Source: Alphaproteobacteria bacterium (GTDB taxonomy: Bacteria > Pseudomonadota > Alphaproteobacteria > RF32 > CAG-239). Taken from it: 48,771 nt of DNA. Shown here one piece after another: positions 43,983 to 48,641 of this stretch. Both the position numbers and the translations under genes were made by a program. Under the pieces are notes generated by a model. The model saw only the letters and a list, made by a program, of their open reading frames with translations, had not been told where the DNA came from and ran no database searches. Location of the stretch: positions 1-48,771 of the forward strand of contig JAGAZZ010000007.1 in NCBI GenBank assembly GCA_017939155.1, in the 5' to 3' direction. The first letter of the stretch is position 1. The number at the start of each line of letters is the position of its first letter.

Positions 43983-45323
43983 TTATTTTCTTTTATTCAT
44001 GTATTCCGTTAACCAATGAATGTTATATTGCCCATCAATAAATTCATTTTGGGAAATAATATCCTGATGTAACGGAATCGTCGTCTTAACGCCCATGATG
44101 ATAAACTCTTCCAAAGCCCGACGCAAACGCATCAAAGCGGCGTTTCTGGTCTTGGCATGAACAATGAGTTTAGCAATCATACTGTCATAAAACGGCGGAA
44201 TGGAGTATCCCGAATAAATCTCGGAATCAACACGGATTCCTAAACCGCCCGGAGCGTGCCACTCGGTAATCTTGCCGGGGCAGGGCGCAAACGTTTCCGG
44301 GTCTTCGGCGTTAATACGACACTCAATCGCGTGTCCTTTAAACTGAATATCATCTTGTGTATAGCCCAAAGCCGCGCCTGAGGCAATGCGGATTTGCTCA
44401 CGCACAATATCAATTCCCGAAACAGCCTCCGTAATCGGATGCTCAACTTGAAGACGAGTGTTCATCTCTAAGAAATAAAACTTGCCGTCTTCATACATAA
44501 ATTCGAGCGTTCCTGCGTTTTGATAGCCGATTTTCTTAATCGCATTGCAGACAATCTCGCCGATTTCTTTACGTTGTGTGTCATTCAAAGCCGGTGACGG
44601 GCATTCTTCAATCACTTTTTGATGATTACGTTGAATAGAGCAGTCACGTTCGCCCAAATGAACCACATTGCCGTATTTATCCGCTAAAATCTGCATTTCA
44701 ATATGCCGCGGGTGCTGTAAATATTTTTCCATATACACGACGTCAGACGGAAAAGCCGCTTTAGCTTCCGCTTTGGCCATGGTGTAAGCTTCGCCGATGT
44801 CATCATCGGAATAAGCCACTTTCATTCCTTTGCCGCCGCCGCCGTCTTTGGCTTTAATAATCACCGGATAACCGATTTTATTAGCCCACACTTTAGCGTC
44901 TTCAACACTCTCAAGAGCCGTTGACCCCGGGGTAATCGGAAGACCGGCTTCAATAGCTGCTTTTCTTGCCGTAATCTTATCACCCAATAAGCGCATTTGC
45001 TCAGCACTCGGACCGATAAACGTAATGCCGTGCAATTCAACCATCTCGGCAAAATCAGCGTTTTCAGATAAAAAGCCGAAGCCCGGGTGAATAGCGTCCG
45101 CGCCCGTAATCAATGCCGCGGAAATAATCGCCTGTTTGTTCAGATACGATTCGGAAGACCTTGCAGGCCCGATACAAACCGCTTCATCAGCCAAACGAAC
45201 GTGCATGGCATTAGCATCGGCCTCAGAGTGAACCGCCACCGTGCGAATACCCATTTCTCGGCAGGCTCTGTGGATTCGAAGCGCAACTTCGCCGCGGTTT
45301 GCAATTAAAACTTTCTCAAACAT
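43983..45323 (-). CDS. accC: Acetyl-CoA carboxylase, biotin carboxylase subunit
   Basis: ATP-dependent carboxylation of biotin on AccB, the first half-reaction of malonyl-CoA synthesis. 446 residues, normal length. N terminus KVLIANRGEVALRIHRACREMGI. ATP-grasp domain with KAKDGGGGKGMKVAY (about 160), HPRHIEMQILAD, RDCSIQRNHQKVIEE and EMNTRLQVEHPITE. C-terminal domain with GHAIECRINAEDP and IPPFYDSMIAKLI. Directly downstream of accB (21 bases), the classic accBC order. Confidence 0.97.
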   Translation of the reverse strand: MFEKVLIANRGEVALRIHRACREMGIRTVAVHSEADANAMHVRLADEAVCIGPARSSESYLNKQAIISAALITGADAIHPGFGFLSENADFAEMVELHGITFIGPSAEQMRLLGDKITARKAAIEAGLPITPGSTALESVEDAKVWANKIGYPVIIKAKDGGGGKGMKVAYSDDDIGEAYTMAKAEAKAAFPSDVVYMEKYLQHPRHIEMQILADKYGNVVHLGERDCSIQRNHQKVIEECPSPALNDTQRKEIGEIVCNAIKKIGYQNAGTLEFMYEDGKFYFLEMNTRLQVEHPITEAVSGIDIVREQIRIASGAALGYTQDDIQFKGHAIECRINAEDPETFAPCPGKITEWHAPGGLGIRVDSEIYSGYSIPPFYDSMIAKLIVHAKTRNAALMRLRRALEEFIIMGVKTTIPLHQDIISQNEFIDGQYNIHWLTEYMNKRK

Positions 45324-45344
45324 TTAAAAATTCCCAAAAAAAGT

Positions 45345-45830
45345 TTATTCAATCACAACCAAAGGCTCACCGTATTCAACCGGGTCGCCGCTTTCAACCA
45401 AAATTTTAACCACTTTGCCGCCTTTGTGCGCTTTAACCGGGTTAAAGGTTTTCATAGCTTCAACCAAGCAAACCGTGTCACCTTCAGCCACCGTGTCACC
45501 CGGTTTAACATAATCCGGAGATTTCGGGTCAGCAGACAAATAAACCACACCAACCATCGGCGATTTAACCGCATTCGGGCTGTTCGTATAGTCAACCTCA
45601 GCGCTTTCAGCGGGAGCACTGGTTGTTGCAACCGGTGCCGCAGCCTGAGAAACCGGAGCAGGGGCAACCGCTGGAGCTTGTGCAAACGCACCTGTTACGG
45701 CAACGCCGGCCGGTTGTCTTGATAGGGAGATTCGGCAGCTTTCATCCTCGTATTCTAATTCGGTTAAATTTGTTTTATCTAAGATTTCTGCCAGTCTGCT
45801 TATAATTTTTGTATCCAAGGGATTAGACAT
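45345..45830 (-). CDS. accB: Biotin carboxyl carrier protein of acetyl-CoA carboxylase
   Basis: 161 residues. An N-terminal helical dimer part, an Ala/Pro-rich flexible linker (about 45-85) and a C-terminal biotinyl domain with VEAMKTFNPV; Lys127 is the biotinylated residue. Start at 45830 has GAGAGGA eight bases upstream; a longer reading to 45926 lacks a good site. First gene of a leftward operon accB-accC-membrane protein-DUF805-two glycosyltransferases. Confidence 0.95.
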   Translation of the reverse strand: MSNPLDTKIISRLAEILDKTNLTELEYEDESCRISLSRQPAGVAVTGAFAQAPAVAPAPVSQAAAPVATTSAPAESAEVDYTNSPNAVKSPMVGVVYLSADPKSPDYVKPGDTVAEGDTVCLVEAMKTFNPVKAHKGGKVVKILVESGDPVEYGEPLVVIE

Positions 45831-45980
45831 AATTATCCTCTCAATTAAAATTAAATTCTTTCCATTCATAAGCCGACATTCAAAAAAATACAAGCATTTT
45901 CTTCCATCTCTCCCCAAACAATGCACAAAAAGCGCAAAAACAGAGCGTTATATTGTTATTTTTAAAGCCGGAAACGCCGC

Positions 45981-47042
45981 TTATTTTAACAAAGCCTTAT
46001 ATTTGCTTCGCAAACTTCTGTAATGCGCCTTCAACTGTCCAAACGTAAAACACGCTAATAATTTATAAAGACGATACTTAAAGAGATACTCTGGTCGATT
46101 GCGCAATTTTTCATAAAGCCCGTTAAAACGCATAAATAAGATTTCTTCGTAAAACGGCGTCAGCCGTGCATAATGCCAAAATATATCCGCCGCCTCTTTA
46201 TCAGGAAAATGCCATGGTTTGAAAGCTGTAGTGTAGTGAATAATTGCAGGGTCTTTTATTGTTTGCGTATATTCAAGACGATATTCTTGAGGATAAGCCA
46301 TAAACTCTTCCGGCTTCATCAAAGAATTTCCGTATTGACAATTCCATTTCATCTCCGCCAGTTGATTTTGCCCGTAAAATACAACATTAAGCACATCTTG
46401 GTCAGGATAATGAAATTTAGGAAGCGATAAAGCCGCCTTTAGTTTTTCCTCATACCAAACAAGGTCAATTTGCCTTATATTAAACAGCAAAACGCCCGAA
46501 TTGAAATAAAGCTCCGGATTTTCGACACCGTAGTCTTTGTATAGCTGAAAATGCTTATTTTTTTGTTTAACAATCTGAGAAAGAGGGTCGAGAACGGCAA
46601 TCAATTTTTTGTCGTTAAAGTTTTTTCTATAAAAATCCTTAATATTCTGATGAAAGCAAACATCCGAATCAACATACATCACTCGGTCAAATTTTTGCAT
46701 AATAAACGGAATAAACAAGCGGTAATACATACTTACCGACCAATAGCTGAAAGCATTTAGGGAAATTCCGCTGAATTTTGCTTTAATGTAAGCATCTAAA
46801 TTAAAAAAGCGCAAACTAAAATTTTTCGGCAACATTGCCGCCAAAAGCTTTTTATTGCGCTCTGAAATATCATTTTCAAACAAAATTATATCATAAAGTT
46901 CATTGGGTTTGCTGTTTATAATCAACGACTTCAACGCCACGCCGAAATAAGGCGTGTAATTATTATCCGGTGCAAAAACCAACGTATAAGCATTTGGGTT
47001 GGCAAATGCAGGTTCAATTAAATATTCGATATTATTGCTCAT
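45981..47042 (-). CDS. Family 8 glycosyltransferase
   Basis: 353 residues, retaining GT-A enzyme like the LPS alpha-galactosyl/glucosyltransferases (WaaI/WaaJ/RfaJ). TLVFAPDNNYTPYFGVALKSL opens the domain. MYVDSDVCF carries the metal-binding DSD at 125-127. YFNSGVLLFNI, YPDQDVLN and IIHYTTAFKPWHF complete the family pattern. Basic C-terminal helices suggest membrane association. GAGGA precedes the ATG, and a structured leader with an intrinsic terminator ends just before that site, so expression may be controlled by attenuation. 150 bases separate its stop from accB. Confidence 0.9.
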   Translation of the reverse strand: MSNNIEYLIEPAFANPNAYTLVFAPDNNYTPYFGVALKSLIINSKPNELYDIILFENDISERNKKLLAAMLPKNFSLRFFNLDAYIKAKFSGISLNAFSYWSVSMYYRLFIPFIMQKFDRVMYVDSDVCFHQNIKDFYRKNFNDKKLIAVLDPLSQIVKQKNKHFQLYKDYGVENPELYFNSGVLLFNIRQIDLVWYEEKLKAALSLPKFHYPDQDVLNVVFYGQNQLAEMKWNCQYGNSLMKPEEFMAYPQEYRLEYTQTIKDPAIIHYTTAFKPWHFPDKEAADIFWHYARLTPFYEEILFMRFNGLYEKLRNRPEYLFKYRLYKLLACFTFGQLKAHYRSLRSKYKALLK

Positions 47043-47057
47043 ATATCCTCACATAAC

Positions 47058-47085
47058 AAAAAAAAGCCGCTTGATGAAGGCGACT
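47058..47085 (-). terminator. Terminator immediately before GT8 ribosome site
   Basis: AGTCGC (47085-47080) pairs with GCGGCT (47070-47065), with one G-U, nine-base loop, followed by Us 47064-47058. The GT8 Shine-Dalgarno site follows within ten bases, so this terminator must be bypassed for GT8 expression from upstream. Confidence 0.65.
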
Positions 47086-47215
47086 GGGAGTTAGAAGCAA
47101 TTTCTTGAATTGTGCAGCTATTTGGCATAACCTTATTAACTGCCTCCCAGTCAATAGACCAAAAGGCAGTTTTTTACGCCTGTAAACAGGCAACAAGAAG
47201 AGGCTTCTAAACCTC
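47058..47215 (-). ncRNA. Candidate structured leader RNA / attenuator
   Basis: Read on the minus strand. Closing helix 47210-47203 with 47098-47091 (8 pairs), a 3x3 internal loop, then 47199-47194 with 47107-47102 (6 pairs). Inside are hairpins 47191-47178 (GCCTG-TTTA-CAGGC) and 47171-47138 (AACTGCC...GGCAGTT). The loop of the second holds GACTGGGAG (47152-47144), which can pair with CTCCCAGTC (47090-47082) just outside the helix, giving a pseudoknot. That partner shares bases 47085-47082 with the left arm of a terminator (AGTCGC 47085-47080, GCGGCT 47070-47065, seven Us). Not matched to a known class. Confidence 0.6.
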
Positions 47216-47405
47216 ACTATGTTCATCATTCATAGCAAGAAAAAACTATAAGCAATGCCAAAATATGTCAAATAGTTTTTATACACTTATCAAAAGATTA
47301 AAAAAATCCTCTTTCTGTTTTTGGTGTGAAAACGCGTTTTGCTGACTATTTTTTAACTAATAACAGATATATTATCGTCGGTATAACTTAACAAGAGGAG
47401 TGAAA
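47216..47405. other. Intergenic region before FtsK-like gene
   Basis: Holds a possible minus-strand promoter for the leader RNA (TTGACA 47271-47266 and TATAGT 47250-47245, but a short 15-base spacer) and a perfect 12-base palindrome AAAACGCGTTTT (47329-47340). A clear + strand promoter for the FtsK-like gene was not found. Confidence 0.4.
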
Positions 47406-48641
47406 ATGCGCGATTTAACCGAAGTTTTGCTAAACTATGACATCAACGGCACCGTTAAAACCATCACCCAAGGTCCGCTGTTGCAAATAATCGAGTTTGA
47501 ACCCAAAGCCGGCACAAAATTAAAAAACATACTGGCAGTGGAAGAGGATATTCGCCGTGAACTGGGCGTTTCCTCGCTCAGAATTGAACCATCAAACACC
47601 AATAACAGCATTTTGTTTCAAATCCCCTTAGATGAGTTTGACACTATTGATTTTAAAACGCTTCTGGAGTCGCCCCAATTTCTCACCGCTAAAACAAAGC
47701 AAACTCTGCCGCTCATCTTAGGCGCGGATATAACAGGAACTCCTGTTATTGCGGATTTATCAAAAATGCCCCACCTCTTAATCGGCGGCACCACCGGCTC
47801 CGGCAAATCAGTCGGTTTGAATACGTTTATCTTATCGTTAATGGCGGCTCTTCCACCCCAAGAGCTCAAATTTGTCCTGATAGACCCCAAAAAGATAGAA
47901 TTCAGTATCTATAATAACCAAAAATATCTCTTAACGCCCGTCATCACTGAAACCGCGGAAGCTATCGCCATTCTCAAATATTTAACCGAAGAAATGGACC
48001 GCCGTTATGAGCTTTTGAGCGAAAAGATGAGCAAAAATCTGGCTGAGTATAATACCTCAGGGCAGGGGAAGCTTCCTTACATTGTCTGCGTTATAGATGA
48101 GTTTGCTGACCTGATGGCGCTTGATAAAAATGTGGAAAAAGACGTAATGCGCTTGGCGCAAAAAGCCCGCGCCGCCGGCATACACTTAATCCTTGCCACA
48201 CAGCGCCCCTCGGTTGATGTTGTCACCGGTGTCTTAAAAGCCAATTTTCCGACCAGACTTTCCTATAAAGTCGCAAGCTCTGCAGATTCGCGCACGATAT
48301 TAGATACAACCGGCGCTCAAAGCCTGCTCGGTCGCGGCGATTCGCTGTTCTTGGCGGCAAACGGCAGCTTAATCCGTCTGCATGGCGCTTATATCACAGA
48401 TTCGGAAATAGCAACATTGCTCAAACCTTATCGTGAGCAAATTCGCCCGTTGAAGTTAGCTGAAAAAACAGAAATACAAACCCAAAACACTCCCGAAAAA
48501 CCCAAACAACCGCTTTATAAAAGAATTTTTAACTTTTGGGGCAATCTGCGCCAAAAGGATAGGGATATGATTATCAAAGTCGCTAAATACGCGTTTGCTT
48601 ATCTTGCCGGTTTCTTGAGTAACAGAAAAAATAAAAAGTAA
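47406..48641 (+). CDS. FtsK/SpoIIIE-type ATPase lacking membrane and gamma domains
   Basis: 411 residues. DNA-pumping motor of the FtsK family: Walker A GTTGSGKS at 128-135, DPKKIEFSIYNNQKYLL, Walker B IVCVIDEFADL near 225-235, LATQRPSVDVVTG, and GRGDSLFLAANGSLIRLHGAY. An N-terminal alpha-like domain precedes the motor. The four-helix membrane domain and the C-terminal winged-helix gamma domain of chromosomal FtsK are absent; the C terminus is a short basic/hydrophobic tail instead. The ATG at 47406 follows AAGAGGAG; a GTG two codons earlier is too close to it. It is probably a second, specialised FtsK-like protein rather than the division FtsK. Confidence 0.85.
   Translation: MRDLTEVLLNYDINGTVKTITQGPLLQIIEFEPKAGTKLKNILAVEEDIRRELGVSSLRIEPSNTNNSILFQIPLDEFDTIDFKTLLESPQFLTAKTKQTLPLILGADITGTPVIADLSKMPHLLIGGTTGSGKSVGLNTFILSLMAALPPQELKFVLIDPKKIEFSIYNNQKYLLTPVITETAEAIAILKYLTEEMDRRYELLSEKMSKNLAEYNTSGQGKLPYIVCVIDEFADLMALDKNVEKDVMRLAQKARAAGIHLILATQRPSVDVVTGVLKANFPTRLSYKVASSADSRTILDTTGAQSLLGRGDSLFLAANGSLIRLHGAYITDSEIATLLKPYREQIRPLKLAEKTEIQTQNTPEKPKQPLYKRIFNFWGNLRQKDRDMIIKVAKYAFAYLAGFLSNRKNKK

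Follow-up and report, generated by a model that had tools for sequence, protein, structure and literature searches.

The minus strand of the window, by which we mean the whole 48,771-nucleotide stretch of Alphaproteobacteria DNA that was analyzed (contig JAGAZZ010000007.1), carries a leader RNA (47238-47062) that is one copy of a conserved family. We consider it likely that this family is a new class of cis-acting, riboswitch-like leader RNA, in which a pseudoknot stabilised by a signal disables the transcription terminator and frees the ribosome site, i.e. acts as the ON state; there are no ligand, expression or probing data. We are close to certain that the RNA is a cis-regulatory structured RNA. 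That it is a ligand-sensing riboswitch appears to us considerably more probable than that it is a protein-controlled leader, binding as such being inferred.

Structure of the leader RNA in the window

The RNA is located between a divergent FtsK/SpoIIIE-type gene (47400-48641, plus strand) on one side and a GT8 glycosyltransferase gene (45981-47042, minus strand) on the other. The latter is the controlled gene; it encodes 353 amino acids (Pfam PF01501, E 8.1e-35) and starts 19 nt past the RNA, its ribosome site GTGAGGATAT and start codon occupying 47040-47052 (minus strand). A covariance model, R1, built from 12 copies matched the whole leader (47062-47238, minus strand) with an E-value of 2.2e-47 and 176 bits, with the caveat that the window copy itself belongs to the R1 seed. 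The minus strand is taken as the functional one because copies of the family are oriented promoter-RNA-terminator-gene, and a terminator-like hairpin that had been pointed out on the plus strand (47138-47175) is merely the reverse complement of the second hairpin described below. Closely downstream of the GT8 gene and on the same strand we also observed biotin/lipoyl-carrier and biotin carboxylase genes (43983-45926), and RNA-controlled readthrough might thus extend into acetyl-CoA carboxylase genes behind GT8.

All elements that follow are on the minus strand. A sigma-70-type promoter (47243-47271), with -35 TTGACA at 47266-47271, a spacer of 17 nt and -10 TAGTTT at 47243-47248, precedes the 5' hairpin P0 (47217-47235; 47230-47235 paired with 47217-47222), in which 6/6 pairs covary, 96.2% of cells are paired and the loop contains a conserved UGAU. 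The initial annotation had proposed two long-range helices enclosing two hairpins, and all four were recovered. The 8-bp helix P1 joins 47203-47210 to 47091-47098 (8/8 pairs covary, 96.7% paired), and the 6-bp helix P2 joins 47194-47199 to 47102-47107 (every pair covaries, 97.9-98.8% paired). Enclosed by them are the hairpin P3 (47178-47191; 5/5 pairs covary, 91.7% paired), flanked on its 3' side by a conserved GUAAAA, and the hairpin P4 (47140-47169), in which strand A (CUGCCUUUUGGUC, 47157-47169) pairs with strand B (GACUGGGAGGCAG, 47140-47152); P4 is 92-95% paired and shows covariation together with conserved U-G wobbles. A small GAGG/CCUC hairpin (47200-47215; 47212-47215 with 47200-47203) is 98.7% paired with double changes in 3/4 pairs, and is an alternative to P1, whose 5' strand forms its loop. 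Further downstream are P5 (47124-47132; 47130-47132 with 47124-47126; 3 pairs, all covarying, 91.2% paired) and a stretch at 47114-47122 made up of a 98-100% conserved AAUA (47119-47122) and strand C1, CUGC (47114-47117), which with the 3' end of B forms P6 (4/4 pairs covary, 90.8% paired). Strand C2 (CUCCCAGUC, 47082-47090) is the pseudoknot partner of B and the start of the 5' arm of an intrinsic terminator (47057-47085; stem AGTCGC..GCGGCT at 47065-47085, then a T run).

A nine-base loop had been reported to match a segment next to the closing helix. The segment in question, GACUGGGAG (47144-47152), is indeed a perfect complement of C2, which lies just 3' of P1, but calling it a loop is incomplete, since it forms the 3' strand of a longer hairpin rich in wobble pairs, and the pseudoknot competes with that hairpin. 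Four bases had been said to be common to C2 and the terminator stem, and they are present, as AGTC.

Conservation of the fold

The structure is decisively more than chance. The fold energy of the window RNA has a z-score of -4.2, with 0/200 dinucleotide shuffles as good, and what decides the matter is that all helices persist in homologues through extensive compensatory change. In an alignment of 12 sequences made without structure (A3), 98.2% of cells in the pseudoknotted fold were paired and 24/41 pairs were doubly changed, and with partners slid by 1-3 columns pairing fell to 33-41%. A second alignment of 98 distinct copies (A6) was fitted to R1, a model that includes the A:B hairpin and excludes the pseudoknot. 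Here the fold consisting of P0, P1, P2, P3, P5, P6 and the pseudoknot was 95.6% paired, as compared to 34-41% with slid partners, and 39/41 pairs were doubly changed. The 1106 doubly changed cells compare with 303 in shuffles, and the covariation score was 0.721, compared with 0.210 +/- 0.006 after shuffling and no more than 0.08 after sliding. The pseudoknot B:C2 was 97.9% paired with double changes in 7/9 pairs, although A6 was not fitted to it. Relatives that broke the pairs without compensation would have refuted the initial proposal; in these 98 copies this was not seen, for the pseudoknot as for the other helices. The alternative helices, i.e. the A:B hairpin and the GAGG/CCUC hairpin, are likewise conserved (95.6% paired, covarying). 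The expectation that a riboswitch has a conserved structured core with covariation is therefore met. Three unpaired segments, AAUA, GUAAAA and CAC, are also conserved and, judged by conservation alone and without binding data, look like the best candidates for a binding site.

Strand B has two mutually exclusive partners

Since A:B and B:C2 are both conserved, strand B has two conserved partners, the upstream strand A and the downstream strand C2, and the two pairings exclude each other. The A:B core keeps its U-G wobbles and B:C2 is nearly all Watson-Crick; the median energies of the 9-nt core are -8.4 and -13.65 kcal/mol, respectively, and C2 is the stronger partner in 90/94 copies. Pseudoknot energies leave out loop penalties. 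In the window copy, the energies of both global states nearly coincide (-62.2 versus about -64.9 kcal/mol, a rough estimate without a pseudoknot penalty). Mutually exclusive folds coupled to a terminator or ribosome site, a further riboswitch criterion, are thus present on comparative, not biochemical, grounds.

A terminator combined with mutually exclusive hairpins also recalls classical attenuation, and the leader could in principle be a leader-peptide or translation-coupled attenuator instead of an RNA sensor. Inspection of the aligned copies, which was not a formal test, revealed no short reading frame that is conserved, and loops of variable length and the conserved UGA in the P0 loop are unsuited to a conserved leader peptide, so we give this explanation next to no weight.

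Promoter, terminator and ribosome site

Upstream of the RNA, TTGA[CA] was found in 57/97 copies where shuffling predicts 11.3, and 51 of the 57 occurrences are at -34..-32 from the RNA start, with an A/T-rich -10 hexamer, TA..T, at -10..-5. Given this fixed spacing P0 should mark the start of the transcript. Behind the RNA, 93/98 copies have a T-tailed terminator hairpin, and in 85/93 its 5' arm begins inside C2, the two having 3-4 bases in common; when the bases shared with C2 were removed, the median terminator stem energy went from -9.5 to -1.6 kcal/mol. The opposition between pseudoknot and terminator suggested for the window is thus conserved across the family, and its sign in vivo is inferred. 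An ORF starts at a median of 29 nt past the RNA, and within 41 nt in 90/99 copies. A riboswitch should be a cis leader of a protein gene on the same strand with a promoter upstream, and the family fulfils this.

The same strand C2 may in many copies also pair with the ribosome site. Complementarity of at least 7 nt between the ribosome site and C2 plus its two preceding bases was present in 24/87 copies versus 1/194 other ORFs of the same loci. The control ORF starts were picked without regard to ribosome sites, and this contrast (also given as 31/87 versus 1/194) is inflated and should be read as an upper bound. Permutation tests are free of this flaw: no permutation out of 2000 paired as well as a copy's own C2 and ribosome site, and when permutation was restricted to within genomes the match remained (p = 0.022 over 29 copies). 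Joint changes were also seen, as AACTTCC with GGAAGTT and AACCTCT with AGAGGTT in one genome (L244, L245), AACATCC with GGATGTT in the window's genome (L041) and AACTCCC with GGGAGTT (L015, L026). In the window copy, the complementarity of the ribosome site to C2 is weak (-2.9 kcal/mol) and does not amount to a match, which leaves the terminator as the sole arm of the mechanism there.

These results bear on the alternative to a switch that had been offered, a stand-alone small RNA with its 3' end at the terminator; such an RNA would act in trans and would lie in front of genes only incidentally. With its own promoter and an intrinsic terminator, a transcript of about 180 nt should exist in the OFF state. 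Independence from the adjacent gene, as expected of a trans-acting RNA, is nevertheless not found: no more than 41 nt separate the RNA end from the start codon in all but 9 of the 99 copies, ribosome sites co-vary with C2, and the downstream genes are unrelated to each other, so the linkage is to position and not to one partner. We consider a trans-acting RNA very unlikely.

Proposed mechanism

Helices, both competing pairings, the terminator overlap and the placement of promoter and gene are established by comparison of sequences only; that the pseudoknot is the ON state, the co-transcriptional order, the existence and nature of a signal, and that the balance is set by a small molecule or ion and not by a protein, are all inferred. 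On the cis-acting reading, transcription would start at hairpin P0, and strand A, being transcribed first, would be the default partner, trapping B in a hairpin weakened by the conserved U-G wobbles. Formation of P2 and P1 would then place C2 beside B. If a signal stabilises the RNA, C2 together with C1 could capture B from A, giving a pseudoknot stacked on P1; this would consume the 3-4 bases with which the terminator stem begins, and the RNA polymerase would continue into the gene. Without stabilisation B would remain with A, leaving C2 free and allowing the terminator to form, and in many copies C2 might in this OFF state also mask the ribosome site of any read-through RNA. Terminator and masked ribosome site both depend on C2 and agree only if the pseudoknot is ON, from which we infer the sign.

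Family and distribution

A DNA search of relatives had hits in 17/57 genomes, and 7 matches were found in the window's own genome. With R1, at least 11 copies were found in the window's genome, i.e. 10 besides the window copy, and matches were present in 118/153 searched genomes of the order (15/17 genera, up to 17 per genome). Elsewhere in Alphaproteobacteria the RNA is sporadic, with matches in 18/289 genomes sampled across the class, and in a phylum-wide search good scores were confined to members of the same class. Two weak matches outside the class (E 2e-4 and 5e-4) did not show the conserved C2/B pairing when their alignments were inspected and were taken as chance. Short DNA pattern scans of genome contigs and viral contigs returned mostly chance matches; among those rescored with R1, clear copies were limited to L128 and L165, whose records both name Alphaproteobacteria, and a viral contig (L200) scored E 8.5e-4. 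Two copies in named records come from 'Alphaproteobacteria bacterium' genomes; roe-deer caecum was the source of one, and the sample of the other was labelled Lapin.

In accordance with the initial annotation, in which the RNA class was not recognised, neither the window RNA nor 18 homologous loci matched any of the 4227 families of Rfam 15 at the gathering threshold; matches obtained at relaxed E-values were sub-threshold and regarded as chance. We found no description of the motif in the open-access literature, a scope that leaves out the main 2017 catalogue of candidate structured RNAs. By Rfam 15 and the accessible open literature the class is new, the largest published catalogue of candidate RNAs not being covered.

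A further copy in the window's genome (L279 2151-2342, minus strand; E 3e-6 with filters off) precedes another prepilin-like gene, and in it B and C2 are changed jointly (GGCGGATGT / ACATCCGCC). Upstream of prepilin-like genes in L280 and L284 we also observed a divergent subclass of the leader RNA with B GGTCGGGGAG and C2 CTCTCCGATC, the L284 terminator being GATCGCC..GGCGAT. R1 misses this subclass or scores it weakly, and the copy numbers are therefore lower bounds.

Tandem copies occur at L036 1501-1918 (minus), L231 1396-1832 (plus) and L232 264-672 (minus). In L231 each copy is preceded by a promoter of its own, and behind the first copy come a ribosome site, an ATG and a short gene remnant, which suggests duplication of a promoter-RNA-start unit. 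Tandem duplications (in genomes G000 and G173), a high copy number per genome and a patchy distribution outside the order would also be expected of repetitive or mobile DNA, such as a MITE-like element or a recombination substrate, whose inverted repeats resemble RNA helices, and palindromic DNA folds on both strands. However, the copies are widely diverged and their compensatory changes keep RNA pairs, including G-U pairs and the pseudoknot; in addition, they are oriented from promoter to gene, and no shared boundaries were noticed beyond promoter and RNA. A DNA element of this kind is, in our opinion, highly improbable.

Genes downstream of the RNA

The proteins encoded downstream are mainly surface proteins. 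A Pfam scan of 87 of them gave outer-membrane beta-barrels (11), opacity-type proteins (8), surface antigen (7), RgpF (4) and GT8 (3), followed by other glycosyltransferases, sulfatase-family proteins (2), PagL and DNA methyltransferases (2), the counts overlapping on some proteins. About 15/99 downstream proteins are prepilin-like, with the motif GRSMIEMLG; the single one tested had no Pfam match. In the window's genome 6/10 of the loci first found lie before prepilin-like genes. RNA copies also precede an EcoRI-type adenine methyltransferase (L023 1440-1654) and an N6 DNA methyltransferase (L241 1724-1938), so not all genes behind the RNA are surface genes. What makes the finding interesting is the family as a whole together with its regulon of surface genes, rather than glycosyltransferases as such.

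As a separate observation, prepilin-like genes without this RNA (L274, L275, L277, L278, L283, L285, L287) often carry a different repeated element about 60-200 nt upstream. It consists of two sites with inverted arms CATAAA / TTTAT(G) and a 6-bp centre, GGTTGG in the first and GGAAGG or CCTAGG in the second, which are 117 nt apart in L275 and L277. Seven strictly palindromic sites were found in the window's genome and none in a reversed-pattern control. The element resembles Xer/dif-type recombination cores.

Candidate signals

Cyclic-di-GMP is the obvious guess for a regulon of pili and surface genes. Canonical GGDEF enzymes are present in 125/134 genomes of the order, and no GGDEF domain was detected in the window's genome (100% complete) or in eight congeners carrying the RNA. 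As these nine RNA-bearing genomes of the window's genus are without detectable GGDEF, cyclic-di-GMP is an unlikely signal, though a synthase too divergent for the Pfam model to detect is not fully excluded. A search for the DAC domain of cyclic-di-AMP synthesis found none in the window's genome (11/14 controls were positive), and CsrA was not found there either; both a cyclic-di-AMP (ydaO) signal and control by CsrA are disfavoured by these absences. For GEMM, ydaO and a CsrA-controlled leader alike, the required host protein was thus not detected. It was also observed that the window's genus (G000 and relatives) has apparently lost its GGDEF proteins or is down to weak matches, and that most of the order keeps several.

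The same leader and terminator/pseudoknot switch could have a protein or another RNA as sensor, stabilising one of the folds. The heterogeneous surface-gene regulon would fit a global regulatory protein, and the downstream genes have no metabolic theme that would name a ligand or a single pathway. A physical cue is likewise conceivable as the signal. Against this, the best-known GGA-binding leader regulator, CsrA, is the one absent from the window's genome, and typical protein sites are less elaborate than a multi-helix fold of about 180 nt with double competition and conserved unpaired stretches. A protein or RNA sensor is a minority possibility that deserves to be kept in mind, and direct sensing by the leader RNA remains our preferred reading.

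Relation to known leader RNAs

Riboswitches with pseudoknot-gated transcription terminators include the fluoride, ZTP/pfl and SAM-IV classes. The new RNA is like them in being a 5' leader with its own promoter, conserved helices and a pseudoknot whose strand overlaps the terminator, and in its occasional tandem copies. In contrast to them it has no Rfam match, is larger (about 180 nt), works by a three-strand exchange of A, B and C2, pairs the same strand with the ribosome site in many copies and has a cell-surface regulon. The GEMM-I and GEMM-II cyclic-di-GMP riboswitches likewise control pilins and surface genes from several copies per genome, and tandem arrangements of GEMM are known, but their fold is different, there is no Rfam hit here and nine RNA-bearing genomes of the window's genus show no GGDEF domain. 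Leaders with dual output, on termination and translation, are comparable in that a single switch strand can act on the terminator as well as on the ribosome site; in the new RNA it is the nine C2 bases that carry the dual pairing, family-wide, in part of the copies. The pnuC (SRC-10-1) motif and other orphan candidates (PMC8632094, PMC10043782) are also comparatively discovered leaders with pseudoknot potential to the ribosome site and a ligand unproven in the class. They are unrelated in structure and taxa, and the pseudoknot of the new RNA uses an upstream strand, with the ribosome site as third competitor.

About 55 riboswitch classes are validated (PMC10043782). Structured leader RNAs with this degree of covariation and this number of copies per genome, and without a database entry, are uncommon finds. 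The design is compact, with a single strand competing for pseudoknot, terminator and ribosome site, and it can be tested directly with synthetic RNA, so that the absence of cultured hosts is no barrier. Taken together, we tentatively propose, at somewhat less than even confidence, that the RNA is a new class of riboswitch responding to a global signal by which host-associated Alphaproteobacteria, including species that have lost their cyclic-di-GMP enzymes, adjust their surface composition (pili, outer-membrane proteins, glycans and some DNA methyltransferases). A single stretch of nine bases would then act as pseudoknot partner, as terminator arm and, in many copies, as the strand opposing the ribosome site. 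If a small molecule is sensed, this would reveal a signal for surface remodelling in mostly uncultured, host-associated bacteria.
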